DNA from: Candidatus Dormiibacterota bacterium
GTDB taxonomy: Bacteria > Chloroflexota > Dormibacteria > Aeolococcales > Aeolococcaceae
Direction of reading: 5' to 3'
DNA: 33,524 nt
Assembly: GCA_003141695.1 (NCBI GenBank)
Contig: PLNE01000107.1
Location: 17,915 to 51,438 of the forward strand
In this document: piece after piece, positions 1-24,021 of the stretch
How the letters are laid out: every line of letters begins with the position of its first letter
How positions within the stretch are numbered: position 1 is the stretch's first letter
Notes under the pieces: generated by a model
The model's input: only the letters and a program-made list of their open reading frames with translations
Told to the model about the DNA's origin: nothing
Database searches by the model: none
Made by a program: the position numbers and the translations under genes

Positions 1-2088
1 GACCGATGGATCGAGATCTGGAACCTGGTCTTCATGGAGTTCGACCAGGCCGAGGACGGCTCCAGGGCGCTCCTGCCGAAGCGCACTGTGGACACCGGCA
101 TGGGCCTGGAGCGGATCGCCTCGGTCCTCCAGGGGGTCCGCTGCGACTACGACACCGACCTCTTCGCCCCCATCGTGGCCGGGCTCGACCGTCGGGCCGC
201 CGGCGGCGCCGACCCGGCCCGGCGGGCACGCTCCCTCCGGGTGCTCGCCGACCATGCGAGGGGTGCGACCTTCCTCATCGCCGAGGGCGTCCTGCCCAGC
301 AACGAGGGGCGCGGCTACGTGCTCCGGCGGGTCATCCGGCGGGCGGCGCTCCACGCTCGGAGGGTCGCGCTGGAGGGCGGCCTCGCCGCGTCGGTCGGCG
401 ACGTGGTGGCGACGCTCCAGGACGCCTATCCGGAGCTGGTCCAGCACCGAACCCTGGCCGTGGCGACCATACGGGGGGAGGAGGAGGTCTTCGCCCGGAC
501 CGTCGAGGCGGGCACCGACCGGCTGGAGGCGCTCCTCGCCGGCGGGGCGAGTGGGATCTCCGCAGACGACGCCTTCCGGCTCTATGACACCTTTGGGCTC
601 CCCGTGGAGTTAACCGTCGAGATGGCAGGGGAACGCGGGCTCTCGGTGGACCGGGCCGGCTTCGACGCCGCTCTTCAGGCTCAGCGCGAGCGCAGCCGTG
701 CCGGCCGCTCAGGCGGCGGTTGGAGCGTCCCGGCGAGCGGCTCTCTCGGCTTGAGCGGCGAACTAGAGGCCATCCTGACCGTCGCGACCCAGTTCGTCGG
801 CTACGAGTCGCTTGAGACCAGCGCGTCGGTAAAGCGCATCGGCGCCGCCGCCGAGCGCGCATCCTTGGGGGTGGGGGAGGAGGATGTGGTCTTCCTCGAC
901 GTCTCCCCGTTCTACGCGGAGGCCGGCGGTCAGGTCGGTGACACGGGGACACTCACCTGGGAGGGTGGGCGCGCCGCGGTGCTCGATTGCCTCCAGATCG
1001 TCGACGGCCCCGTCCGGGGACGGGCGCACCGGGCCCGGGTCGAGGCCGGCACCCTGCACCGGGGCGAGGCGGTGACCGCCGAGGTCGATCGCGATCGTCG
1101 CGGCGCGACCGCACGGCACCACAGCGCCACCCACCTCGTCCACAAAGCCCTCCGCGAGACCCTGGGCGAGACCGTCGTCCAGCGTGGATCGTTCGTCGGG
1201 CCCGAGCACGCCACCTTCGATTTCAGCTTCCCCCGCGGGCTGAGCCCGGAGGAGATCCAGACCGTCGAGCAGCGCATCAACGCCGCAGTTCGTGACAACC
1301 TCGTCCGCAACGTGCGGGAGATGCCGGTCGCCGAGGCGCGGGCCTCGGGGGCGATGGCACTCTTCGGCGAGAAGTACGGCGACCTGGTGAGGGTGGTCGA
1401 GTTCGGCGGCTGGTCCCGCGAGCTGTGCGGCGGCACCCACGTCGGCCGGAGCGGCGACATCGGGGCAGTCATCGTCCTCTCCGAGACCTCGATCGGGCAG
1501 GGCACACGGCGCATCGAGATGGTGGCCGGCGGCGCCGCGGTGCGGCGGTGGGAGGAGTCGGAGGCGCTGCTCCGGGAGACTGCCCGGACGCTCAGGGCGC
1601 GCCTCGACGAGGTCCCGGACCGAGTCGCCCGCCTGCTCGAGCAGAACCGTGAGCTGCAGCGCAGACCCCGCGAGGGTGGGGGAGACGCGGTGAGTGCCGC
1701 ACTCCGCGCCGTCGAGGTGACCCACGCCGGCGCCGTCGCCGTGGCGCTATGGGACGACACGGCGCTGAACGGGGACGATGCGGTCGCCCTGGTGGACCGG
1801 CTTTTCGCGGAGCGGCTCGGTGGCGACGGCGTTGCCGTCGTCTTCGGGCAGGCGATCGTCTGCGTCAAGGTAAGCGAGAGCGCGATAGCGGCGGGGATGA
1901 ACGCGGGGCGACTTGCATCGGTTGCGGCGGTCGCGTCTGGCGGTCAGGGCGGGGGGAATAACGCTTTCGGCCGCGGCGGGCTGAAGGACCCTTCGCGGCG
2001 CCAGGCGGCGCTCGACGCCTTCCAAACCGCGCTTGAGGGTCGGGTGATCGAGGCTTTCCGGCAGGGCCTGGAGGGCCTCGAACGATGA
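1..2088 (+). CDS. alaS: Alanine--tRNA ligase, 5'-truncated by the window edge
   Basis: Charges tRNA-Ala with alanine in the cytoplasm and hydrolyses mis-charged Ser/Gly-tRNA-Ala. The reading frame is open from base 1 and begins in the class II core with IEIWNLVFMEFDQ, a typical AlaRS segment, so the ATP-binding motifs 1 and 2 lie outside the window. What remains is 695 codons of a family of about 870-900 residues. Two editing-domain signatures are visible: HHSATH (window residues 373-378) and CGGTH (476-480), which together supply the zinc ligands. A coiled-coil-like stretch near 520-555 leads into a DHHA1-type C-terminal domain with the glycine-rich GGQGGGNNAFGRGG. The stop overlaps the next gene's ATG (ATGA). 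An internal ATG at base 34 is not the true start, because homology continues upstream of it. Confidence 0.97.
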   Translation, partial: DRWIEIWNLVFMEFDQAEDGSRALLPKRTVDTGMGLERIASVLQGVRCDYDTDLFAPIVAGLDRRAAGGADPARRARSLRVLADHARGATFLIAEGVLPSNEGRGYVLRRVIRRAALHARRVALEGGLAASVGDVVATLQDAYPELVQHRTLAVATIRGEEEVFARTVEAGTDRLEALLAGGASGISADDAFRLYDTFGLPVELTVEMAGERGLSVDRAGFDAALQAQRERSRAGRSGGGWSVPASGSLGLSGELEAILTVATQFVGYESLETSASVKRIGAAAERASLGVGEEDVVFLDVSPFYAEAGGQVGDTGTLTWEGGRAAVLDCLQIVDGPVRGRAHRARVEAGTLHRGEAVTAEVDRDRRGATARHHSATHLVHKALRETLGETVVQRGSFVGPEHATFDFSFPRGLSPEEIQTVEQRINAAVRDNLVRNVREMPVAEARASGAMALFGEKYGDLVRVVEFGGWSRELCGGTHVGRSGDIGAVIVLSETSIGQGTRRIEMVAGGAAVRRWEESEALLRETARTLRARLDEVPDRVARLLEQNRELQRRPREGGGDAVSAALRAVEVTHAGAVAVALWDDTALNGDDAVALVDRLFAERLGGDGVAVVFGQAIVCVKVSESAIAAGMNAGRLASVAAVASGGQGGGNNAFGRGGLKDPSRRQAALDAFQTALEGRVIEAFRQGLEGLER

Positions 2089-3350
2089 TCGGGCGCAAGA
2101 AGTTCACGATCCTGCGCCGCCGCGGGGAGTTTCACAGCCACTACACCGTGCTCGACATCGGCACCGAGTTCGTCAAGGCGCTAGTGGTCAAACGGGAGGA
2201 GGGAGCGGGCATCGTCATCGGCGTCGGCAAGGTGCGCCAGTCCCTCTCCGACATGCAGTCGGGGGCGGTCGCCGACATCCAGGGCGTCATCGACAACTGC
2301 GATCGGGCGCTCACCGAGGCCGAGGACATGTGCGGGACGATCCCCGGCCAGGTGGTGATGGGCATCGCCGGGGAGCAGGTGCGCGGCTTCAGCACCACCA
2401 TGACGATGCCGCGCTCCCAGCCGCAGGCCCGGATCACCCAGGCCGACGTCGCCACCGCGCTCCAGGCGGTCCAGCGCCGCGCTCTCAAGGAGGCGGTGCG
2501 CCAGATGTCCCACGAGCTGGGCGTGGCCGAGGTCAACGTCAAGCTGGTCCACAGCAGCATCACCTCGGTGCACATCGACGGCTACGCAGTGACCAACCCC
2601 CTCGACTTTCAGGGCCAGGTGCTGGAGATATCCGTCTTTAACACTTTCGCCCCGCTCACCCACATCGGGGCCCTCCAGACCATCGCCCAGGAGCTGGACC
2701 TGGAGCTGGTGGCGACCGTCGCCGAGCCCTACGCGCTCACCCGCGGCTGCGCGACCGAGGATGTGTACGAATTCGGGGGCATCTACATCGACGTCGGCGG
2801 CGGCACCACCGACATCGCCGTCGTCCGCCGCGGCATCGAGGCGATCCGGATGTTTGCCCTGGGAGGTCGCTCCTTCACCCGCCGGCTCGCCAACGAGATG
2901 GGGATGAGCCTGGAGGAGGCCGAGCGCTTCAAGCTGGCCCACGCCGAGGGCCGGCTCCCCGCCGAGCAGGACGCCCTCGCCCGCGCCACTCTGGAGCCGA
3001 CCGCGGAGGTGCTCGCCCAGGGGGTTGCACTGACCCTCGAGGAGCTGTCCGGCAAGGAACAGCTGCCTCCCGCGCTCTATCTCGGTGGCGGCGGGGCGGC
3101 GTTGCCCGAGGTCGCGGAGCAGCTGTCGGCCCTGGACTGGACCGAGGTTCTGCCGATGAGCCGCCAGCCGACGGTCAGGGTGCTCGGCCCCGGCGACGTC
3201 CAGGGGATCCACGATTCGACCGGCCTTCTGGTCGGGAGCCAGGATGTGACTCCGATGGGGCTTGCGTATCATGCGGTGTCCCTGGAAGATGACGCGGACC
3301 AGCCTCTGGGCGGCCTGATGCGCCGCGTCATGAAGGCGATGAAGGTGTGA
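2085..3350 (+). CDS. FtsA/PilM-like actin-fold ATPase
   Basis: A 421-residue protein of the FtsA/PilM branch of the actin/Hsp70 ATPase superfamily. A phosphate-1 motif lies at residues 24-31 (DIGTEFVK) and a phosphate-2 motif at about 235-243 (IDVGGGTTD). Between them, roughly 80-200, is an SHS2-type insert of the FtsA kind, including DGYAVTNPLDFQGQVLEISV. The C-terminus (GGLMRRVMKAMKV) is short, basic and hydrophobic, and could be an amphipathic membrane-targeting helix as in FtsA. The N-terminus is also basic. The length matches E. coli FtsA (about 420), but there is no ftsQ or ftsZ beside it. It overlaps alaS by 4 bp and is followed 13 bp later by a single-pass membrane protein. I infer that it is the cytoplasmic partner of that protein, as PilM is of PilN. 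It could still be a divergent true FtsA. Confidence 0.85.
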   Translation: MIGRKKFTILRRRGEFHSHYTVLDIGTEFVKALVVKREEGAGIVIGVGKVRQSLSDMQSGAVADIQGVIDNCDRALTEAEDMCGTIPGQVVMGIAGEQVRGFSTTMTMPRSQPQARITQADVATALQAVQRRALKEAVRQMSHELGVAEVNVKLVHSSITSVHIDGYAVTNPLDFQGQVLEISVFNTFAPLTHIGALQTIAQELDLELVATVAEPYALTRGCATEDVYEFGGIYIDVGGGTTDIAVVRRGIEAIRMFALGGRSFTRRLANEMGMSLEEAERFKLAHAEGRLPAEQDALARATLEPTAEVLAQGVALTLEELSGKEQLPPALYLGGGGAALPEVAEQLSALDWTEVLPMSRQPTVRVLGPGDVQGIHDSTGLLVGSQDVTPMGLAYHAVSLEDDADQPLGGLMRRVMKAMKV

Positions 3351-3363
3351 TGGGGCCTGCTGA

Positions 3364-5547
3364 ATGGCCAAGAGACTGATTCACGTCGGCCCGGAGGACG
3401 ACGTCGCGGATCTGGCCGGGCAACTGCAGGCTGCCCATCCCGGCGACGAGATCGCGCTCACGGTGGCGCCCGGCGCCCAGGCCTTCCAGACCCCGCTCAA
3501 CCTCCGCCTCCTGCGGAGCGTCGCGATGAAGCGCGGGCTGACCACGACGATCGTCAGCCCGGATCCGCGCATCCAGCAGGTGGCACAGAGCGTCGGACTG
3601 GTCGTCTACAGCTCGGTGGCGGCGCTCGAGGGCGGAGTTCCGGTCGACTCGCCGCGTCCCGGCTTCCGCCCGGCGGGGCCAGCGTCCCGGCCCCAGGCGC
3701 CGTTCCTGCCCGGGCCGCCGGCGCCGGCCCCGGGTGGGGCGAGCTCGGTGGCCGCCCCGCCGTTCGAGTACGTGCTGCGGCCCCTGACGCCCCCGGCGTC
3801 CGCCGGCGCCGATCTGCCTGTGACCCCGTCGGCGGCCGCGCCCGGAGCCGTCCCGGCCCCCCGGACCGGGCCATGGGGCGCACCGATCGTCCCGGCCCGG
3901 CCACCGGCTACACCCGAGCCCGTGGTGCCGGCCTGGGAGGCGCCCGTCAGCTTCGTTCCGACCCCGCGTGCGGCGGACCTGGGCTACATCGCGTCGCAAC
4001 CGGCGGGCCAGATCTCCCCGGCCTCGCCGCCATATGCCCCGTTCCTGCCCGCGTCGCCCGCCGGACCGCCGCCCCGACCGGGGGGCTCGTGGAGCTCCCT
4101 CTCCGAGATCCCTGACGAGGAGGAGCCGTCGTCGCCCTGGGGGGCGGCGCGAGCCGCGGTCGCTCCCGCGATGGCCGCCGGGGTGATCGCCACGCCGGCG
4201 GCTCCGCCCTCGATCCCGGCGCCGGCAACGGCCTCACCACCGAGGACCGCGCCGTCCAGCCGCCGGCAGCCGTCGCCCCCGCCTCCGACGTCCACGGCGG
4301 GACGGATCCGCCTGCCGTCGCGCCGGGTCATCTACGGCATCGTGGTGGGGGCGCTTGCGCTCGGCATCGTCCTCTTCCTGCTCCTCGGCACATCCGCCAC
4401 GGTCACCATCACGGTGGCCGAACAGCCGCTCACCGTCACCCCGACGATCCAGGGGACGACCTCGACGGCCCAGGCCGGCCAGGCCAACTACATCCTGAGT
4501 AAGCAGATCACCGACACCGCGAGCCAGACCTTCCAGGCCACCCCCACAGGGAGCCAGCCGGTGCCGGCGGTGGCCGCGACCGCCGTCGTGGTGCTGACCG
4601 CGGGTGCACAAGGTGAGTGCGCCAACGGATGCAGTTTCACGCTCACTTCAAAATACCAGTTCGAGACCGCCACCACTCCGTCGATCGTTTTCGGCGTTTC
4701 GGGCCAGACAGGGGTGACGATCCCCGCGGGCGGCGGCACGAGCAGCGCCATCCCGGTTACGGCCCTGACGACGGGAAGTATCGGGAACGTCCCCGCCGGC
4801 GCGATCAGCCTCTGCCCGTCCACATCGGCCTCGGGTGACTGGTGCACAACCTTGGACCTCCAGGCCACCAACCCGGCCGCGGCCACGGGTGGCGTGGATG
4901 GTGGCGCTCAGACCGTGGCCAGCGCCTCCGACATCGCCAACTGGCAGGAGCAGCTCGGCCAGGTCGAGAACCAGCTCGGCGCCAAGGCCGCTTCGTACCT
5001 CACCACCAAGGCCGGCCAGGAGAAGGTCGCCATCGACCCCAACGGCGGGGGCAAGAGCCTCACCTTCGTGGTCAGCCCCTCCACCTTCCCCCCGGCCAAC
5101 CCGAGCACGGTGATGACCGCCACGACGGTGACGGTGACCATGACCGCGCAGGAGACCCTCTACAACCCGGCCGATCTCAATGCGGTGGTGCTCAAGGACC
5201 TGCAGGCCTCCTCCAACCTCCCCGCGGGGGACAGCCTGGTGCCCGCCCAGCTCCAGCTCAACAACGTCCAGATCATCCAGGCGGGGAGCGACGGCAGCTT
5301 CGCCCTGTCGCTGTCGGCCGTCGACTACTACCACGGCAAGGTCGACCTCACGCAGCTCAAGAGCCAGCTCAGCGGGCGCAGCCCAGGCAGCGTGCCGGGG
5401 ATCGTCAAGCAGGCGATCCCGAACGTCCACAGCGTGACCGTCGACGAGACCCCGGTCCAGTTCCTCTTCATGCCGTTCTCCGGCTCCAGCATCCACATCG
5501 TGGAGACCTTCGTGACCGGCGGCTCCGGGTCGAGTGCGAGCGGCTGA
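3364..5547 (+). CDS. Single-pass membrane protein with proline-rich linker and baseplate-J-like outer domain
   Basis: 727 residues in four parts. Residues 1-95 form a compact alpha/beta-looking cytoplasmic domain with no signal peptide. Residues 96-318 are a long low-complexity linker rich in Pro, Ala and Ser. Residues 322-343 are one hydrophobic transmembrane helix (IYGIVVGALALGIVLFLLLG). Residues 344-727 are a Thr/Ser/Gly-rich, beta-looking region expected outside the membrane. Around 452-483 it carries the VTIPAGGGTSS...GSIGNVPAGAI pattern typical of phage baseplate-J/gp47-like proteins. Its end (SQLSGRSPGSVPGIVKQAIP, then PVQFLFMPFSGSSIHI) resembles the tail of chromosomal baseplate-J-like membrane proteins of Chloroflexota and Patescibacteria, as I remember them. 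Four outer cysteines could form disulfides. No phage genes are nearby, so a phage tail role is unlikely. The function is unknown; the FtsA-like gene just upstream is the probable partner. Confidence 0.75.
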   Translation: MAKRLIHVGPEDDVADLAGQLQAAHPGDEIALTVAPGAQAFQTPLNLRLLRSVAMKRGLTTTIVSPDPRIQQVAQSVGLVVYSSVAALEGGVPVDSPRPGFRPAGPASRPQAPFLPGPPAPAPGGASSVAAPPFEYVLRPLTPPASAGADLPVTPSAAAPGAVPAPRTGPWGAPIVPARPPATPEPVVPAWEAPVSFVPTPRAADLGYIASQPAGQISPASPPYAPFLPASPAGPPPRPGGSWSSLSEIPDEEEPSSPWGAARAAVAPAMAAGVIATPAAPPSIPAPATASPPRTAPSSRRQPSPPPPTSTAGRIRLPSRRVIYGIVVGALALGIVLFLLLGTSATVTITVAEQPLTVTPTIQGTTSTAQAGQANYILSKQITDTASQTFQATPTGSQPVPAVAATAVVVLTAGAQGECANGCSFTLTSKYQFETATTPSIVFGVSGQTGVTIPAGGGTSSAIPVTALTTGSIGNVPAGAISLCPSTSASGDWCTTLDLQATNPAAATGGVDGGAQTVASASDIANWQEQLGQVENQLGAKAASYLTTKAGQEKVAIDPNGGGKSLTFVVSPSTFPPANPSTVMTATTVTVTMTAQETLYNPADLNAVVLKDLQASSNLPAGDSLVPAQLQLNNVQIIQAGSDGSFALSLSAVDYYHGKVDLTQLKSQLSGRSPGSVPGIVKQAIPNVHSVTVDETPVQFLFMPFSGSSIHIVETFVTGGSGSSASG

Positions 5548-5569
5548 ACCTCCGGCGGGGATCGGCACC

Positions 5570-5593
5570 GTGAACGTGAACGTGAGCGTGAGC
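5570..5593 (+). repeat. Four tandem GTGAAC/GTGAGC hexamers at the ruvX start
   Basis: GTGAAC occurs twice and then GTGAGC twice, directly in tandem. Each unit carries an in-frame GTG, so ruvX has four equivalent starts encoding Val-Asn/Val-Ser repeats. Changes in copy number would not shift the frame. Confidence 0.8.
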
Positions 5594-6022
5594 GCCACCT
5601 GCGCCGCCATCGGCGTCGACTTGGGGGCCCGCCGGGTGGGCCTCGCCGGTGCCGATCCCACCGGCACCATCGCCACTCCCCTGACCACGCTGGAACGCCG
5701 GCATCCCAAGTTCTGGTCGGCGCTGGAGCAGGCCTGTGTGGAGCGCGGCTGCCGCCTGCTGGTGATCGGCCTGCCCCGTCGCCTCGACGGGGGTGAAGGC
5801 GATGCGGCGGCGGTCGCACGTCGCTTCGCCGCCGACGCCGGGCGCCGTCTCGGGCTGGAGGTGACCATGTGGGATGAGTGGTTGACCACCGCCCAGGCGG
5901 AGCGCGCGCTTATCGCCGGAGGGGTCCGCCGGGCGCAGCGGAGGAGTACGGTGGACGCGGTGGCCGCCACCCTGATCCTCCAGAGCTACCTCGACGCCCA
6001 CCCCCGGAGCCCTTCGCCGTGA
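5570..6022 (+). CDS. ruvX: YqgF/RuvX-type Holliday-junction resolvase-like nuclease
   Basis: RNase H-fold protein of the RuvX/YqgF family, linked to Holliday junction resolution and to 16S rRNA 5'-end processing. It shows the first catalytic Asp in GVDLGARRVGLA, the VIGLPRRLDGGEG segment, a WDEWLTT segment (most members have DER), and the final STVDAVAATLILQSYLD with its Asp. I chose the GTG at 5570 because a GGCGGGG purine tract sits about nine bases upstream, and the resulting 150 residues fit the family length (about 138-150). An upstream GTG at 5534 would overlap the previous gene by 14 bp. The start lies in a run of four in-frame GTGAAC/GTGAGC hexamers, so starts at 5576, 5582 and 5588 are also possible. 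The stop overlaps mltG. Confidence 0.9.
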   Translation: MNVNVSVSATCAAIGVDLGARRVGLAGADPTGTIATPLTTLERRHPKFWSALEQACVERGCRLLVIGLPRRLDGGEGDAAAVARRFAADAGRRLGLEVTMWDEWLTTAQAERALIAGGVRRAQRRSTVDAVAATLILQSYLDAHPRSPSP

Positions 6023-7047
6023 GGCGCGGCGAGAGGGGCCGGCTCGGCGTGCTCTTCGCACTCATCGGGGTGGTCGTGGTCGTGGCCCTGCTCGCCGGGG
6101 CGGTCTTCGTCTACGGCCGCATCCAGCTCGAGGCGGCGGACACCGGGAGCGAATCCGCGACCGTGGTCACGGTCACGCCGGGGGAGAGCCTCGACCAGCT
6201 GGCGACCAGCCTCGAGAACCAGGGGCTGATCAAGAGTGCCCTCTTCTTCTCGGCCTATGCCCGGATCCGCGGCGTGCAGCTCCACGCCGGCTCGTACCAG
6301 GTGGATTCGGCGATGGCGGCGAGCGAGATCATCAAGGTCCTCGAGGGCCCGCGGTACTGCGCGCCGGTAACCTTCGTCATCCCCGAGGGCTTCACCATCG
6401 ACCAGATCGCCGAACGCATCGCGGCGACCAAGGGACTGGACATCACCAAGGCCGACTACCTCGCCGCGCTCACCCAGAGCGGATACACGGCGACCTTTCT
6501 CAGCATTCGCCCGGCGGGTGACACCTCGCTGGAGGGGTTCCTCTTCCCGGCCACCTACGTGGTGCCGGACTGCGCCACCGCCCACCAGGTGGTGCAGCAG
6601 CAGCTGGACGCCTTCAAGGGCAACATCGCGCCGAAGCTCCCGTCGTCCCCGACCCAGGCCTACGACGATCTCATCACGGCCTCCATCATCCAGGCCGAGG
6701 CCCGGTTCGCCGCCGACTTTCCGCTGGTCGCCTCCGTGGTCAACAACCGGCTCGTCGCCCACATGGACCTCCAGATCGACGCCATCGTGATGTACGGGCT
6801 GCACCTGTCCGGGGAGCCGATGTCGACGGCCGACGAGGGCATCAACACCCCCTACAACAGCTATCTCAACCCCGGCCTTCCGCCCACCCCGATCGACTCT
6901 CCCGGGCTCGCCACCCTGGGCGGCGCGCTCGCCCCGGCCTCGACCTCATACCTCTTCTACGTGACCGACACGTGCGGACACAACCACTATTCGGTCACCG
7001 AGGCCGTCCACGAGCAGCAGGTTTCTCAATATGAGGCCTCCTGTTGA
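6019..7047 (+). CDS. mltG: Endolytic murein transglycosylase MltG
   Basis: Inner-membrane lytic transglycosylase of the MltG/YceG family, which cuts nascent peptidoglycan glycan strands and so sets their length. The GTG start at 6019 overlaps the ruvX stop (GTGA) and gives 342 residues, a usual length. One transmembrane helix lies at about 9-34 (LFALIGVVVVVALLAGAVFV). It is followed by a LysM-like segment (VTVTPGESLDQLATSLENQG) and the catalytic domain with the conserved Glu227 in ASIIQAEARF. The ending SYLNPGLPPTPIDSPGLA and the FYVTDTCGHNHYS block are family hallmarks. The ruvX-mltG-aroE order is known from many Gram-positive-type bacteria. The frame runs open upstream of 6019 through ruvX, but that part is ruvX read out of frame. 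Confidence 0.95.
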   Translation: MRRGERGRLGVLFALIGVVVVVALLAGAVFVYGRIQLEAADTGSESATVVTVTPGESLDQLATSLENQGLIKSALFFSAYARIRGVQLHAGSYQVDSAMAASEIIKVLEGPRYCAPVTFVIPEGFTIDQIAERIAATKGLDITKADYLAALTQSGYTATFLSIRPAGDTSLEGFLFPATYVVPDCATAHQVVQQQLDAFKGNIAPKLPSSPTQAYDDLITASIIQAEARFAADFPLVASVVNNRLVAHMDLQIDAIVMYGLHLSGEPMSTADEGINTPYNSYLNPGLPPTPIDSPGLATLGGALAPASTSYLFYVTDTCGHNHYSVTEAVHEQQVSQYEASC

Positions 7048-7912: not shown

Positions 7913-7949
7913 CCGGGCCGTCCGCGAACCGCGCCCCCAGCAGCCGTCG

Positions 7950-8714
7950 ATGAATCTCGCCTTCACGCTCGCCGCGGGGGCGGCGGGCGCCGCCGTGGGG
8001 CTCGGCACCGGATGGCTCAACGTCTTCCTGGAGCGGTTGGAGCGGCTCCGCCCGGAGGAGGACGAGGAGCGTGCCGAGTACGAGGCCGAGGTCGCCAAGG
8101 CGGCGGACGCGGCCAGGGAGCGGGGGGAAGAGCCCGAGGCGGCAGCGCCGTGGTTGCCCGAGCAGTACGGGTGGACCTGGCTGGAGTGGGGCCTGGCCCC
8201 AGTGCTGGGCGCCTTTGCCTTCAGCCTCTTCGCGGGGCACCAGTCGCTCACCTGGGGCGCTGCCGAGACCTTCCTCTGGATGGCCGTGTTCGTCCAGATC
8301 GTGCTCTTCGACCTCAAGCACCGGCTGATCCTCGACAAGATCACCTACCCGGCCATCGTGGTGGCCGTGGGGCTCTCCGCCGTCACTCCTGGGCTCTCGT
8401 TCACCCGGTCGCTCACCGGCGCCCTGGTGGTCGGCGGTTTCTTCGTGCTCTTCCACCTGATCTCACGCCGAGGGATCGGGCTGGGCGATGCCAAGCTGGG
8501 TGCCCTGATCGGCGCCGTGACCGGGCTCGGGTTGGACAGCCCCGATCATCTGCAGGCGATCTACGCGGTGACCGGCGGCATCTTCCTGGGCGGTGCCGTC
8601 GCGCTGCTCCTCCTGCTGACCCGGGTTCGGAGCCTCAAGGACCCGATTCCCTACGGCCCGTTCCTCTGCGCCGGTGCCGTGCTGGTGCTGTTTCAGAGCC
8701 TTCCCCTCACCTGA
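7950..8714 (+). CDS. A24-family prepilin peptidase
   Basis: Membrane aspartyl protease of the type IV prepilin peptidase (A24) family, which would cleave prepilin-like leader peptides. The two catalytic aspartates are visible: Asp121 in FDLKHRLI and Asp180 in GIGLGDAKLGA (the GxGD motif). About six hydrophobic segments are present in 254 residues. The N-terminus (GTGWLNVFLERL) matches the start of the usual N-terminal domain. The following cysteine-rich loop of that domain is replaced by a charged Glu/Ala/Arg stretch at about 32-66, so the methylase activity may be missing. The ATG at 7950 lies 37 bp after aroE; the frame is open further upstream, but that part is aroE out of frame. A peptidase at this place beside aroE is also known in Actinobacteria. 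No pilin gene is visible in the window. Confidence 0.9.
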   Translation: MNLAFTLAAGAAGAAVGLGTGWLNVFLERLERLRPEEDEERAEYEAEVAKAADAARERGEEPEAAAPWLPEQYGWTWLEWGLAPVLGAFAFSLFAGHQSLTWGAAETFLWMAVFVQIVLFDLKHRLILDKITYPAIVVAVGLSAVTPGLSFTRSLTGALVVGGFFVLFHLISRRGIGLGDAKLGALIGAVTGLGLDSPDHLQAIYAVTGGIFLGGAVALLLLLTRVRSLKDPIPYGPFLCAGAVLVLFQSLPLT

Positions 8715-9373: not shown

Positions 9374-10792
9374 GTGGCCGCAGCGCTGGACGCCCTCCAG
9401 CTCGCCCGGCCGGGTTACCTCCTGGGCGGGACCCCGGACATCAGCGTCTACCTGGGGACCGCGATAAGGCTCGTCCACGGCGTCCTCCCGTACCGCGACT
9501 TCGTGCTGGTGCAGCCTCCGGGGGGCACCCTTCTGCTCAGTCCGGCCGCGTTGCTCTCGGACCTGGTCGGCACCCGCTGGGCCCTGGCCATGGTCCGGCT
9601 GGGGGCCATCCTCGTGGCTGTCGCCAACGTCCTTCTCGTGGGCAGGCTGGTCCGCCACCACGGCCGGCTTCAGACCCTGGTCGCCTGCGGGGTGATGGCG
9701 GTCCTTCCCGCAGAGGTCTACGCCCTCAACGCAGGACTGCTCGAGCCCCTGGTGGACCTCTTCTGCCTGCTCGGGGCGGCGATCGTCCTCGACAGCGGTG
9801 CGCTGTCGTCCTCGTGGCGGCGGTGGCTGATCGGCGGGGCGGCGATCGGCTTCGGCGTCGCCGTCAAGCTCCCCGCGGTCGTCCCCGCTCTTGTCCTCGG
9901 CGCAGCCTGCCTTCCCGAGGTGCGCCGCCGGCTGGTGCCCTTCGGGGGCGGAGTGGTCGCCGGTTTCGCCCTGCCCTCCGTCGCCTTCATCGCCGCCGCG
10001 CCGGGGTCGTTCTTCCGCGACGTGGTGGGCGGCCAGCTCGGCCGAGTCCCCGATGCGAGCCGCGCATCGGTGGCGACCCGGCTCGCCGGGATCACCGTGG
10101 GCGGAGGCGGCGACGTCGCCGTCGGCATCACGCTCGCGCTGCTCGCGGTGATCGTGCTCGGGCTGGCGGTTCGCGGCAGGCGGAGGGACGCGAGCGAGTG
10201 GTTCGCCATCGCCGCGGCGCTGCTCGTCGCCGGTGTCCAGTTCGTACCGTCCCAGTACTACCCGCAGTACGCCGCGCTGCTCGCGCCCTTCCTGGCGCTC
10301 AGCCTGGCCACCGCCGTCGACCGTCTCGCCGGCCTGGTCAGGCGGCGGGTGCTCGTCCTCGCCGCGGTGGCGGCATGCCTGGCTGCCGTCCTTGCCGGAC
10401 AGGTGGTCGCCATCGAGGCCTCCTCGGTCAGCGACCCGGCCGCCGCCGTCGATGCGGTCGTGCCTCCCGGGGGATGCACCCTCTCCAACGGGCCGCGGAT
10501 GCTCGTCCCCAGCGACCGCTTCGTCTCGACCACGCCGGGCTGCACTGCCATGGTCGATCCCTTCGGCACCATGCTGACGTTCGCCGGCGATGACGGCGCT
10601 GGAGTCGCCCTCTTCCGGGCCGCGATATCTCACGCGGACTACCTGGTGCTGACCGGCGGTGTCGCCGGCTGGCTGAGCGGTCCGTACACGCCCCTGCAGG
10701 CCGTGGTCACCGGCGACTTCCACCTGGTCCGTTCCGGTGATCTGTGGATCTACGTGCGGGACGGGTCCCCGGTGGGGGGAGGCGGGCGATGA
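9374..10792 (+). CDS. GT-C-type polytopic membrane protein (glycosyltransferase 39-like), first paralog
   Basis: A polytopic membrane protein resembling GT-C glycosyltransferases of the ArnT/PMT/DUF2029 kind. A first-loop acidic motif (GTPDISVYLGTAIRLVHG) is followed by LPYRDFVLVQPPG, the pattern seen in lipid-linked sugar transferases. About nine or ten hydrophobic helices come next, then a soluble tail of about 130 residues with two cysteines 22 residues apart. The sugar and acceptor are unknown. The coordinates use the first conventional start (GTG 9374). The upstream in-frame residues RRPNATIVAVSALVAA, however, align with RRDPATTVVVVMALVAA of the next gene, so translation probably starts earlier, perhaps at CTG 9317, and this call trims about 19 residues. 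It overlaps the next gene by 4 bp (ATGA). Confidence 0.75.
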   Translation: MAAALDALQLARPGYLLGGTPDISVYLGTAIRLVHGVLPYRDFVLVQPPGGTLLLSPAALLSDLVGTRWALAMVRLGAILVAVANVLLVGRLVRHHGRLQTLVACGVMAVLPAEVYALNAGLLEPLVDLFCLLGAAIVLDSGALSSSWRRWLIGGAAIGFGVAVKLPAVVPALVLGAACLPEVRRRLVPFGGGVVAGFALPSVAFIAAAPGSFFRDVVGGQLGRVPDASRASVATRLAGITVGGGGDVAVGITLALLAVIVLGLAVRGRRRDASEWFAIAAALLVAGVQFVPSQYYPQYAALLAPFLALSLATAVDRLAGLVRRRVLVLAAVAACLAAVLAGQVVAIEASSVSDPAAAVDAVVPPGGCTLSNGPRMLVPSDRFVSTTPGCTAMVDPFGTMLTFAGDDGAGVALFRAAISHADYLVLTGGVAGWLSGPYTPLQAVVTGDFHLVRSGDLWIYVRDGSPVGGGGR

Positions 10793-12294
10793 CCACGGGG
10801 ACCGTCACCCCCGCGACGGGAGGCCGATGGCGGGCCGCGGCGCGGCGCGACCCGGCCACCACCGTGGTGGTGGTCATGGCGCTGGTCGCCGCCGGGCTTC
10901 AGGTGCTGACGCTCGCCCGCCCCAACTTGCTGCTGGACGGCCATTCCGACACCAGCCTCTACCTGGGAGCGGCGATCCGGTTCGTTCATGGCGCCCTTCC
11001 CTACCGCGACTTCGCGATGGTCCAGCCGCCCGGTCTGGTGCTGCTGTTCAGCCCGTTCGGCCTGCTCTCGATGGCGGTCGGCTCCCGAGTGGCCCTGATG
11101 GCCGTCACCGGCTGCACCCCGCTGCTTGCCGCCGCCAACGTGGCCCTGGTCGGGAAGCTGATCGCTCACCGCGGATGGCGCGCGACCCTCGCCGCCTGTG
11201 GACTGATGGCCGTCTTTCCGGCGACGTACGTCGCCCTCGGGGACGGCATGCTCGAGCCGCTCATGTGCTTCTTCTGCCTTCTGGGCGCTGTCCTGGTCTT
11301 CGACCGGGACGGTCTCGCCGGACGGCGCCGGCTGGGTGCGGGAGGCATCGCCTTCGGCTTCGGGGGGTCGGTCCTGATCGCCACCGCCCTCCCGGCGCTG
11401 GTCGTGATGGCGCTGTGCTCGGGCCGCCTGAAGCGCCGGCTGCTGCCCTTTGCGGGAGGGGTCGCCGCCGGCTTTCTCATTCCGGTGATCCCCTTCTTCG
11501 TGGCGGCGCCCGCCGCCCTCGTCCACGACACCGTGGTCAGCCAACTGGAGCGCGTCTCGGGGGGCGGCCGCACCCCGGTGGCGGACCGGCTCATGTACAT
11601 GACGTTTGCCCCCGATGGGGGCCGGGTGATATGGGCCGTCGTCGCCCTGGCGGTGCTGGGAGTTGTGATCGTTGCGGGGCTGGCTGCGGTGCGGCGCCGC
11701 CTCACGGCGCTGGACTGGTTCGCCGTCGGCGGCACGCTCAGCCTCGGCGCCGTCCAGTTCACCATCGCCATCTACTTCAACCACTTCCCCGCCATGCTGG
11801 TGCCGTACCTCGCGCTGCTCCTGGGCATCGCGGTGGGGCGGCTCAGCTCGTGGCGGGCGCCGCGACTGATGGCGGCGGTGGCCGCCCTTGCCGTGGCCGG
11901 TCTGGTGGTCGCCCAGGCGTCCCGCATCGAGACCGAGTCGATCGTGGACGTGGGTCCGTGGGTGGACGCCGTCGTGCCTGTGAATGGGTGCGCCATCGCC
12001 TCGCTCACATACCTCGTGGTGACGAGCAACCGCTTCGAATCGTCGGTTGCCGGGTGCACCACGTTCACCGACCCGGGATCGACGCGGCTCGTCGACCACG
12101 ACAGCCCGGGCGGCCCGGTGCCGGCGTTCCGAACGGCGCTGGAGCACACCGACTACCTGGTTCTCGACCGGACTCTCCGCCAATGGCTCTCTGGGGCGTA
12201 TGCGCCGCTCCAAGGGTACGTCACCCAGGATTTCCACCTGATCCGGTCCGGAGCTCTGTGGATCTACGTTCGCGACGGCTACCAGGTGGGGTGA
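10789..12294 (+). CDS. GT-C-type polytopic membrane protein, second paralog
   Basis: 501 residues, clearly a tandem duplicate of the gene before it. The shared blocks are LARPNLLLDGHSDTSLYLG, LPYRDFAMVQPPG, the GDGMLEPLMCFFCLLGAVLV helix, and the tail ending DFHLIRSGALWIYVRDG. The fold is again GT-C-like: an acidic residue in the first outer loop, many hydrophobic helices, and a soluble C-terminal domain with Cys pairs at the same 22-residue spacing as the first copy. It is probably a transferase acting on lipid-linked sugars at the outer face of the membrane; the substrate is unknown. The ATG at 10789 follows a strong purine tract (GGGGGGAGGCGGG) and overlaps the previous stop. It is followed by a 194-bp gap, so this gene may end a transcription unit. 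Confidence 0.8.
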   Translation: MTTGTVTPATGGRWRAAARRDPATTVVVVMALVAAGLQVLTLARPNLLLDGHSDTSLYLGAAIRFVHGALPYRDFAMVQPPGLVLLFSPFGLLSMAVGSRVALMAVTGCTPLLAAANVALVGKLIAHRGWRATLAACGLMAVFPATYVALGDGMLEPLMCFFCLLGAVLVFDRDGLAGRRRLGAGGIAFGFGGSVLIATALPALVVMALCSGRLKRRLLPFAGGVAAGFLIPVIPFFVAAPAALVHDTVVSQLERVSGGGRTPVADRLMYMTFAPDGGRVIWAVVALAVLGVVIVAGLAAVRRRLTALDWFAVGGTLSLGAVQFTIAIYFNHFPAMLVPYLALLLGIAVGRLSSWRAPRLMAAVAALAVAGLVVAQASRIETESIVDVGPWVDAVVPVNGCAIASLTYLVVTSNRFESSVAGCTTFTDPGSTRLVDHDSPGGPVPAFRTALEHTDYLVLDRTLRQWLSGAYAPLQGYVTQDFHLIRSGALWIYVRDGYQVG

Positions 12295-20795: not shown

Positions 20796-22510
20796 CCCGG
20801 CTCCTCGAGCTTCGACTCCGCAATTTCGCCCTAGTGCGGGACGCGCGCCTCGACTGCGATCCCGGGTTCGGAGCCCTGAGTGGAGAGACCGGCGCCGGCA
20901 AGTCGCTCTGCATCGCGGCCGTGCGCTGGGCGCTCGGAGCGCGGGTCGAAGGCGAGGCGGTGGGGGAGGGGACCTCGGTCCGGGCCGTCTTTGAACCGAG
21001 CTCAGAGAGCGTCGTCCTGCTGGCAGGGCTCGGCATCCCCGTCGACGACCTGGTCACGCTCACCCGCGATGCGGGGAGCTCGGGGCGCTCGACCTGCCGG
21101 GTCAACGGCGCCCTCGTCTCCCAGGCGACCCTGCGGGAGCTCGGCGAGCAGCTCGCCGAGGTCACGGCACAGGGGGCCAGTCACCGGCTGCTGCAGCGGG
21201 CGTGGCAGCGCAGAGCGCTCGACGATTCAGGGGGCGATCCCGTCCTCCAATGTCGGGCGGCGATGGCGGACGCGCACCGGCGCCTGCGCAGCGCCGAGGC
21301 GGCGCTCACCGCGGCGCGAGCGGCGAGCCGCAGGACCGCCGCGGAGCTGGCCGAGGCGGAGGCGAGCATCGCCGAGCTGGAGCCGCTGCGGCTCCGCGAG
21401 GGCGAGGAGGACGATCTCGGCGCGGAGCGGCTGCGCCTCCGCCATGCCACCGGCATCGCCAGTGCCGCCACCCTGCTCGGGGAGGCGGCGACCGGCGATG
21501 AGGCGGGCGCCGCGGATCTTCTCGAGCGTGCCCTGATCGGTGTCGAGGCCTTGAGCGGGGTCGATCCGGCCCTGGCCGACCTCGGCGGGGAGGGGGCCGC
21601 GCTGGCCGCGGCACTGCGCGATCTCGGCGTCTCGGCCCGGCGCATGGCCGACCGGGTGGAGGTGGACCCCATCCGGCTGGAGGCGGTCGAGGAGCGCCTC
21701 GACGCGCTGGCCCGGGTGCGTCGCCGTCATGGTTCGATCCGCGCCGCCCTCTCGGTGCTCGAGGGTGCCAGGGGGATCTGCGACGCCGCTCGCGGCGGCC
21801 TGGACATCGCCAACCTGGAGGTGGACGCTCGGGCCGCCCAGGCCGGCGCCGCCACGGCCGCGCGGCGGCTCAGCGCCTCCCGGCGCGAGGCGGGCCACGC
21901 GCTGGAGCAGGCCGTGGAGCGGCACCTGGCCGTCCTCGAGCTCCCGGATGCCCATTTCCGCGTGACCCTCGGCGTGGTCGCCGATGCCGACGGCGTCGAC
22001 CTGGGTGACGGCCCGCTCCGCTGCGACGCCGACGGCGTCGACCTGGTGGAGTTCCGGCTGGCGGCCAATCGCGGTGGGGTGCCGCTGCCGCTCGACGAGG
22101 GCCCGTCCGGGGGAGAGCTCAGCCGGTTGGCCCTGGCGCTCGCTGCCGCCGGGGGAGGGGGTGGCCAGCCCCTGATGGTCCTGGACGAGGTCGACACCGG
22201 TGTGGGCGGCGAGACCGCGGCGCGGGTCGGCGACCTCCTCGCCGACATCGGCAGGGGCCGCCAGGTCCTCGCCGTCACCCACCGCCCCGAGATCGCCTCC
22301 CGCGCCGGCTGGCACCTCCTGGTCTCCCGTCTGGGAGGCGGCGACGCCGTGGAGAGCACCGTGCGCCGGGTCGACGGCGAGGAGCGGGTGTCGGAGATCG
22401 CCAGGATGATGTCCGGCCGGACCACCGCGGCTGCGATGGCGCGCGCCGGAGAGCTGCTCCGTGAGGGCAATGCCAGCTCCGGTGCTGGCGCTCGCTCACG
22501 CGCGGGATGA
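20792..22510 (+). CDS. recN: DNA repair protein RecN
   Basis: SMC-like ATPase that gathers broken DNA ends in recombination repair. 572 residues. The Walker A GETGAGKS has Lys37. The N-terminal LLELRLRNFALV is typical. Two long Ala/Glu/Arg-rich coiled-coil arms occupy about 150-215 and 285-375. The ABC signature is GPSGGELSRLALALAAA and Walker B is LMVLDEVDTGVGGETA, followed by the AVTHRPEIASRA switch. A 19-bp direct repeat near 21986-22046 encodes DADGVDL twice, just before the VEFRLAANRGG strand. The GTG at 20792 overlaps nadK; no other start fits the conserved first strand. It overlaps the Fic gene by 4 bp. Confidence 0.96.
   Translation: MTRLLELRLRNFALVRDARLDCDPGFGALSGETGAGKSLCIAAVRWALGARVEGEAVGEGTSVRAVFEPSSESVVLLAGLGIPVDDLVTLTRDAGSSGRSTCRVNGALVSQATLRELGEQLAEVTAQGASHRLLQRAWQRRALDDSGGDPVLQCRAAMADAHRRLRSAEAALTAARAASRRTAAELAEAEASIAELEPLRLREGEEDDLGAERLRLRHATGIASAATLLGEAATGDEAGAADLLERALIGVEALSGVDPALADLGGEGAALAAALRDLGVSARRMADRVEVDPIRLEAVEERLDALARVRRRHGSIRAALSVLEGARGICDAARGGLDIANLEVDARAAQAGAATAARRLSASRREAGHALEQAVERHLAVLELPDAHFRVTLGVVADADGVDLGDGPLRCDADGVDLVEFRLAANRGGVPLPLDEGPSGGELSRLALALAAAGGGGGQPLMVLDEVDTGVGGETAARVGDLLADIGRGRQVLAVTHRPEIASRAGWHLLVSRLGGGDAVESTVRRVDGEERVSEIARMMSGRTTAAAMARAGELLREGNASSGAGARSRAG
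21986..22046 (+). repeat. 19-bp direct repeat in recN
   Basis: GCCGACGGCGTCGACCTGG occurs at 21986-22004 and again at 22028-22046, 42 bp apart, so the frame is kept and residues DADGVDL are repeated. It may be a small internal duplication. Confidence 0.6.
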
Positions 22511-24021
22511 TGGGCGAGATGACGAACCTGCCAGATGGTCAGGGCGTCGAGGTGCGTCCGGGGAACCCGCTTGACGTGGCCTTGCTCTATGCGCGTCTGT
22601 CGGCGCTCGACGCCGACTACGTTCCGATGGAGCGCAGCGACGCCTGGTCGGGCTTGGTGGCCGACGCCGTGCAATGGGACCACGTGTTGCAGACCATGCA
22701 GGCGACTCGAGAGCGATCAACGACGCAAGATCATCGGCGGGCTATCGAGGTGGCCATGCGTGCTGCCGCCGTCGACACAGGCGCCATCGAGGGCCTCTAC
22801 GAGGTCGACCGGGGCCTGACCTTGAGCGTGGCCACCCAGGCCACCGCGTGGCAGGCGTCCGTGATGGAGAAGGGCCAGACGGTGCGCGACCTCTTTGAGG
22901 CGCAGCTGCAGGCGTACGAGCTGGCCCTCGATGTCGCCACTCGCTCGATCCCGATCACCGAGGCCTGGATCAGGCGCCTGCACGAGGTGCTCTGCGCGCC
23001 GGAGCAACGCATCAACGGGCTGACCTCGCAAGGATGGCAGGAGCAACCCCTTCTGAAGGGCGAATACAAGCGCACTCCGAACCACGTTCTGCAGCTGGAC
23101 GGCAGCTGGTTCGCCTACGCACCGGTCATGGATACTCCGGCAGAGATGCACCGGCTCGTCGAGGAACTGTCCCACCCGGGCTTCCTGGCCGAGCATCCGG
23201 TGGTTCAGGCCTCGTACGCGCACCACGCCTTCGTCCGGATCCACCCATTCCAGGACGGGAACGGAAGGGTCGCCCGGGCCCTCGCATCGGTATTCCTCTA
23301 CCGGGCGGCCACCGTCCCGTTGGTGATCTTCGCCGATGAGAAATCCGAGTACCTGGCGGCGCTGCGCGCCGCCGACCGCGGAGAGCGGCAGGTCCTGGTC
23401 GGATTCATTGCCGAGCGAGTCGCGGGGGCCGTCCAGCTGGTCGCCGAGCAGGCGGGTGGGGACCTTGAGCAGCGGGTGACCGAGTTGCGCAGCCTCCTCT
23501 CCACGAGGAGCGGGCTGGCCCACGCAGAGATCGACGCGCTGGCCCGCAGGCTCGTCAATGCTGCGCACGCGGCGGGGGAACTCGAGATCCGAGGTCTGGC
23601 CCTGCCTGCGGGTGCGCGCCTGTATTCGCAGGCCAACGACCCCACATCGGAGGCGCACAGACCGCCGCCTCCGGGCGGCTACCGTCCCATCTCTTCCCCG
23701 CATCAGGCCGGTGCCGGGGTCTATCTCTGGGGCGAGGTCGAGTCGCCTGCGCAGGCGCATGCGCAACGCGCGATCCGCGTATACGCCCGCGTGGACGGCG
23801 AAGCCGAAGGCCTCTTCCGCCTGGTCGCCGGTGGTGGTCAGGCACTGGACATCAATTTGGGGGATGTCCAGCCTGATATCCGCACCTCCTTTGATCTGCG
23901 GCTCAGGGCATGGGTGAGGCGGGTGTTGGAGAGCGTCGTTGACGAGATGGCCTCTCAGGCCCGCGAGGCGCTGAAGAGCGCGGGTTACCAGAGCAACGAT
24001 GACCCGACGAGTGGGGGCTGA
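22507..24021 (+). CDS. Fic-domain protein (probable AMP transferase) with N-terminal inhibitory motif
   Basis: 504 residues. The core motif HPFQDGNGRVAR (246-257) is a complete Fic active site with catalytic His246 and the Arg pair, so transfer of AMP or a similar group to a protein hydroxyl is likely. Upstream at 91-96, TGAIEG fits the (S/T)xxxE(G/N) inhibitory helix; Glu95 would block ATP, as in class II Fic proteins. About 200 residues after the Fic fold include a helical segment that may be a winged helix and a part (about 380-504) that I do not recognise. The gene lies between recN and scpA, where relatives carry core genes. It uses more A/T third-position codons than its neighbours (acg, cga, ttg, aaa, caa), suggesting transfer. 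No partner antitoxin gene is visible. ATGs at 22510 and 22519 are alternative starts. Confidence 0.92.
   Translation: MMGEMTNLPDGQGVEVRPGNPLDVALLYARLSALDADYVPMERSDAWSGLVADAVQWDHVLQTMQATRERSTTQDHRRAIEVAMRAAAVDTGAIEGLYEVDRGLTLSVATQATAWQASVMEKGQTVRDLFEAQLQAYELALDVATRSIPITEAWIRRLHEVLCAPEQRINGLTSQGWQEQPLLKGEYKRTPNHVLQLDGSWFAYAPVMDTPAEMHRLVEELSHPGFLAEHPVVQASYAHHAFVRIHPFQDGNGRVARALASVFLYRAATVPLVIFADEKSEYLAALRAADRGERQVLVGFIAERVAGAVQLVAEQAGGDLEQRVTELRSLLSTRSGLAHAEIDALARRLVNAAHAAGELEIRGLALPAGARLYSQANDPTSEAHRPPPPGGYRPISSPHQAGAGVYLWGEVESPAQAHAQRAIRVYARVDGEAEGLFRLVAGGGQALDINLGDVQPDIRTSFDLRLRAWVRRVLESVVDEMASQAREALKSAGYQSNDDPTSGG

Follow-up and report, generated by a model that had tools for sequence, protein, structure and literature searches.

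An FtsA-superfamily ATPase and a membrane protein with a baseplate-J-like ectodomain form a conserved gene pair in Chloroflexota and Patescibacteria

Introduction

What is the role of an actin-like ATPase encoded next to a membrane protein with an outer region like that of a phage baseplate protein? The question arises from a stretch of 33,524 nucleotides (the window) of Candidatus Dormiibacterota contig PLNE01000107.1, whose host genome belongs to the Chloroflexota (3.09 Mb, 79.6% complete). A first-pass annotation of these letters suggested that the ATPase may bind the inner domain of its neighbour and may drive or scaffold an envelope structure, a reading that we keep in the conditional. 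The literature that we searched contained no description of the ATPase and its bitopic partner, here called PART, as a pair; its coverage of subscription papers and preprints was thin, and an earlier notice is possible. Among the NCBIfam models none is dedicated to, or names, either protein.

Results

Gene order and neighbourhood

The first-pass annotation had placed the pair at 2085-5547 with a 13-bp spacing, and both reading frames (2085-3350 and 3364-5547) were found there (Table 1). The ATPase frame overlaps the alaS stop by four bases, and downstream of PART the window continues with ruvX, mltG, aroE and then a prepilin peptidase gene (7926-8711). Those window genes that could be identified are housekeeping genes, and none of them is a phage tail gene, in agreement with the earlier remark that such genes are absent nearby. 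Elsewhere in the window a Fic-domain protein (22507-24021; Fic 6.8e-18) lies between recN and scpA, and two adjoining GT87-type membrane glycosyltransferases (9374-12294), probably tandem paralogues, lie between a PH-domain protein and aroC.

Table 1. Features of the ATPase-PART locus, in window coordinates
Feature	Position	Strand	Basis or remark
alaS	34..2088	+	conserved upstream neighbour of the ATPase
FtsA-superfamily actin-like ATPase, 421 aa	2085..3350	+	Pfam FtsA/PilM_2, AF2, PDB match, own clade
Phosphate-1 loop LDIGTE..K	2145..2183	+	D24, G26, T27 and K31 invariant in 18 sequences
Phosphate-2 loop IDVGGGTTDIA	2784..2822	+	D236, G238-G240 and T241 invariant in 18 sequences
C-terminal amphipathic basic helix GGLMRRVMKAMKV	3303..3347	+	helix 407-420 in the AF2 model
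PART, bitopic membrane protein, 727 aa	3364..5547	+	ORF, Pfam, AF2
Predicted cytoplasmic STAS-like alpha/beta N-domain, aa 1-96	3364..3651	+	pLDDT about 89
Pro/Ala-rich disordered linker, aa 97-318	3652..4317	+	pLDDT <50, 27% Pro
Single TM helix, aa 319-342	4318..4389	+	AF2 helix 320-342; RIRLPSRR just before
gpJ/gp47-like ectodomain, aa 343-727	4390..5544	+	pLDDT mostly 80-90 over aa 344-720; Foldseek, viral library, profile
ruvX	5534..6022	+	conserved downstream neighbour of PART
mltG, endolytic transglycosylase	6019..7047	+	YceG 2.5e-66; ORF open from 5878; conserved second downstream neighbour

Linkage across phyla

A strong ATPase match (E below about 1e-40) was found in 62 of 221 sampled Chloroflexota genomes, and in at least 59 of the 62 PART follows directly downstream on the same strand; PART also adjoins the ATPase at L117, a locus outside the 59 counted. 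Among 192 Patescibacteria genomes of the group of G262 (ATPase threshold E below 1e-45) we found PART in 186 and the ATPase in 110, the two adjoining in at least 89 of the 110 among the matches listed, where the median distance between their aligned parts is 40 bp. Named matches come from Howlettbacteria, Peribacteria, Moranbacteria, Saccharibacteria, Dojkabacteria and Halothermothrix sp. DTU029. The usual order is alaS-ATPase-PART-ruvX-mltG, followed in several Patescibacteria by a LysM-CHAP protein gene and obgE. Since this order recurs in three phyla the pairing is not due to chance, and the two families, whose co-occurrence the first-pass annotation had left to be surveyed, are indeed regular neighbours in both groups. 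The one Halothermothrix (Bacillota) genome with the pair (L145) has it in the same alaS-ruvX-mltG setting, perhaps through transfer or mis-binning.

The partnership is not exclusive. Many Chloroflexota have PART at the same place without the ATPase, and we rejected the idea of an exclusive couple, PART being the wider of the two. The N-domain is kept in nearly all of these cases, from which it follows that it has another use or partner. A gene of 387-389 aa between alaS and PART (L230, L231, L233 and L235) was considered as a diverged ATPase, but its sequence, when read, rather suggests a sugar-phosphate isomerase, and the idea was dropped.

Domain anatomy of PART

AlphaFold2 agrees with the anatomy first proposed for PART, namely a cytoplasmic domain, a Pro-rich linker of about 220 residues, one transmembrane helix and an outer region, and by the positive-inside rule the protein is predicted to be oriented N-in. 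The N-domain, which is conserved across Chloroflexota and Patescibacteria, gave a Foldseek match to 3mgl (probability 0.99, E 0.053) with other alpha/beta folds next, lending modest support to a STAS-like model. A baseplate-J-like outer region had also been proposed, and this is borne out at the family level and by the predicted fold. By itself the window PART, with an E-value of 0.0021, falls short of the Pfam cut-off for Baseplate_J; across the family 33 of 39 members match that model (PF04865; E up to 0.01, best 2.2e-12), members also match the phrog_6 baseplate wedge (best 2.8e-17), and a profile search returned gp47 (9ki1, E 0.0018). Foldseek aligned the modelled ectodomain with baseplate proteins (9gb2, 8kea, 9euf) over about 370 columns at E 3e-6 to 5e-4, and baseplate proteins were matched in a viral library as well. 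Superposition over the whole length is poor (RMSD >30 A), probably owing to a different orientation of the domains; about 120 residues form a core that superposes at 4-5 A. The start of the transmembrane helix varies among members from residue 107 to 598; ectodomain length is nearly constant, with a median of 363 residues where the ATPase is present and 350 where it is not. PART thus shares fold and sequence motifs with the gpJ/gp47/gp6 baseplate wedge proteins, but differs from them in being membrane-anchored with a cytoplasmic domain and in having no tail genes around it.

A separate ATPase clade in the FtsA superfamily

The actin-fold ATPase of FtsA/PilM type that the first-pass annotation had recognised is placed in that superfamily by both Pfam (FtsA 2.7e-11; PilM_2 2.2e-8 over a partial stretch; both above cut-off) and NCBIfam, where it scores 105.2 bits against the FtsA model TIGR01174, under the equivalog cut-off of 175.85, and 23 bits against the PilM model TIGR01175, whose cut-off is 133. 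In a maximum-likelihood tree of 56 FtsA, PilM and pair ATPase proteins, three separate clades were recovered (FtsA 98/99, PilM 100/100, pair ATPases 99/97), L091, L092 and L094 being long branches of uncertain position. The host genome's own FtsA and one from Peribacteria fall in the FtsA clade. Grouping with true FtsA was one of the two outcomes named in advance as speaking against an undescribed system, the other being that the families seldom adjoin, and the window ATPase lies outside that clade. We therefore rejected its identity with FtsA, given the separate clade, the alaS-ruvX-mltG locus and the existence of another FtsA beside FtsZ, and with PilM, given the clade, the TIGR01175 score and the gene context. 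An ATPase search matched all 61 relatives, most of which have at least two matches, a strong orthologue and a weak one; the weak match was true FtsA in each of the five cases read, with a full ftsZ adjoining in four. For the host genome's own FtsA the neighbouring stretch ends at the contig end. Viral contigs scanned with the ATPase alignment gave no relative.

The AF2 model of the ATPase (pLDDT 91) has FtsA as its closest PDB fold, the FtsA-FtsN complex 7q6i being best, followed by PilM and, far more weakly, MreB. In its two phosphate loops the residues listed in Table 1 are invariant over a set of 18 members that spans Chloroflexota, Patescibacteria and Halothermothrix. In family f2 (L039, L040) the second loop is degenerate (VDIGARTT), with PART still adjoining. 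The C-terminal helix (moment 0.73, net charge +3), where pLDDT drops to about 75 and lower still at the final residue, is a possible membrane anchor by analogy with that of FtsA; most members have such a basic amphipathic helix, but none was seen in the proteins of Dojkabacteria and Halothermothrix.

These similarities might mean that the ATPase is a second FtsA of the divisome, binding FtsZ, with PART as an FtsN-like activator. The closest solved folds and the amphipathic tail fit such a role, as does the finding that FtsN and PilN each use a short cytoplasmic tail to bind FtsA and PilM, respectively (PMC7613929). Against this, a separate FtsA exists beside FtsZ, the pair lies outside the dcw cluster in every locus read, and for PART, with its folded, possibly STAS-like N-domain and its gpJ-like ectodomain, neither Pfam nor NCBIfam gave a match to FtsN or SPOR. 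We regard a divisome role as unlikely.

Evidence bearing on contact between the two proteins

One line of evidence comes from nine long PARTs of 724-760 aa in a single Patescibacteria group (L221-L229, all inspected), which begin with a shrunken ATPase homologue where the separate ATPase gene is gone. HHalign aligned the first 255 residues of these long PARTs with the pair ATPase at E 2.3e-14 over 221 columns, and the fused stretch with FtsA and PilM at 1.4e-3 and 0.049; judged by these alignments, the long forms are a natural fusion of a reduced ATPase to PART. GspL of type II secretion offers a parallel to this fused arrangement. Having neither the inserted subdomain nor the GGGTTD loop, the fused homologue is probably inactive, and since that loop is lost here and degenerate in f2, ATP turnover may be dispensable. 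Five further Patescibacteria whose ATPases have diverged also have a shortened PART N-domain.

Over a set of 37 genomes, distances between the ATPases correlate with those of the N-domain (partial r 0.76 given alaS, 0 of 999 permutations), against 0.06 for the ectodomain. When fast lineages are removed the values become 0.37 and 0.33; with the difference gone, the co-divergence must stem from a few joint accelerations. Fusion, joint divergence and linkage across phyla give good, if indirect, support to contact between the ATPase and the cytoplasmic end of PART, and the two may bind each other directly.

A possible link to the cell wall

PART was found in 130 of 194 MurG-positive Chloroflexota genomes and in 3 of 27 MurG-negative ones (Fisher p 2.7e-8, kinship ignored), a contrast that is not independent of descent, as a single family, f8, supplies many of the MurG-negative genomes. 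The 64 MurG-positive genomes that gave no PART match perhaps reflect profile sensitivity. At two Patescibacteria loci the LysM-CHAP protein, likely a peptidoglycan hydrolase, is encoded downstream of the pair with mltG on one side and obgE on the other (L131:10679-11839 and L141:8387-9478). In the one fused-PART locus scanned a sortase gene follows PART (L221:6042-6740); genes of similar size occupy that position in most of L222-L228, identity having been read at L221. Proximity to mltG proves little by itself, since alaS-ruvX-mltG is a conserved housekeeping string. From the gene neighbours (mltG, the hydrolase and the sortase of the fused-PART locus) together with the near-absence of PART from MurG-less genomes, the cell wall appears to be the best-supported target of the pair.

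Discussion

Beside the computed findings of a separate family, a conserved linkage, a recurrent domain anatomy and a natural fusion, we set a proposal to which we give an even chance of being right: that the pair is a trans-envelope module in which a membrane-bound actin-like scaffold organises PART and thereby cell-wall remodelling. The analogy behind it is with FtsA, to which the partner FtsN binds by its cytoplasmic tail. The ATPase would assemble at the membrane as an actin-like scaffold, both anchoring and assembly being conjectural, and would hold PART by its cytoplasmic end; the long linker and transmembrane helix of PART would carry the gpJ-like ectodomain into the wall zone. By gathering or positioning PART, which would contact the wall or wall enzymes (MltG, and in several Patescibacteria the LysM-CHAP hydrolase), the scaffold could govern the placing or timing of local peptidoglycan cutting.

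This proposal overlaps with one in which PART is a wall-sensing receptor, its ectodomain reading the wall and a cytoplasmic module (the STAS-like domain, the actin-like partner or the kinase of a paralogue) acting as output. Such a receptor would suit the putative STAS-like N-domain, the many PARTs without an ATPase, and a protein of family f17 in which a protein kinase domain (Pkinase 1e-41) is attached to an ectodomain of this type (L121:5743-8430). Family f17 also has several extra PART paralogues. However, the ATPase retains its nucleotide-binding motifs and membrane tail, and no effector gene recurs consistently in its neighbourhood, and sensing as the chief function seems to us improbable.

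More doubtful still is a pilus role, in which the pair would form a base like that of PilM-PilN for a type IV pilus or a related filament. Like PilM-PilN it combines an FtsA-like cytoplasmic protein with a bitopic partner, and its PilM_2 similarity, the prepilin peptidase gene downstream in the window, and a pilB-pilC-pilin-pilT cluster in the same genome (L057, C184, 9334-16622) that has no recognisable pilM, pilN or pilO all lean this way; a PilM_2 search of the 79.6% complete host genome returned nothing besides the pair ATPase. Yet pair ATPases and PilM occupy separate clades, no pilN or pilO was identified beside the pair, and full-length PilB was matched in 11 of 31 relatives, whereas nearly every relative has the pair; in G010 (98% complete) the pair is present without a full-length PilB. 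A separate strong PilM is moreover present in 8 of 12 Patescibacteria or Halothermothrix genomes tested, and the pilus loci of Saccharibacteria TM7x have their own pilM1 and pilM2 (PMC12206443). As for a remnant of a phage or a component of a contractile injection system, suggested by the gpJ/gp47-like ectodomain, we rejected it as close to refuted: the contractile sheath gene is absent from G000 and from 23 of 28 genomes of these lineages (it is present in five), all nine Patescibacteria/Halothermothrix genomes being among those without it, and tail genes were not recognised at any locus read.

Returning to the scaffold proposal, the ATPase and its bitopic partner resemble FtsA-FtsN and PilM-PilN but belong to neither. 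With FtsA-FtsN they share an FtsA-fold ATPase ending in an amphipathic helix and a bitopic partner that would bind the ATPase through its cytoplasmic end; they differ in clade, in coexisting with the cell's own FtsA and in not lying beside ftsZ, as they differ from PilM-PilN in clade, in coexisting with PilM in most Patescibacteria tested and in occurring without pilB. MreB-RodZ of the elongasome likewise joins an actin homologue to a bitopic partner tied to wall growth; the pair ATPase, however, matches the FtsA-type fold, with MreB far weaker, and its partner is a different protein. Going further, one may picture a third FtsA-lineage cytoskeleton, ancestral to Chloroflexota and Patescibacteria, which exapted a baseplate-type ectodomain for wall remodelling and could be indispensable to many Patescibacteria, an idea that we hold tentatively and lean against as a whole.

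If the scaffold reading is true, a cytoskeleton-like element would be added to the envelope of Patescibacteria, and a phage-baseplate-type fold would be serving as a bacterial envelope domain. Growth and host attachment in Patescibacteria are poorly understood, and the pair would then be a defined object of study in the genetically tractable Saccharibacteria.
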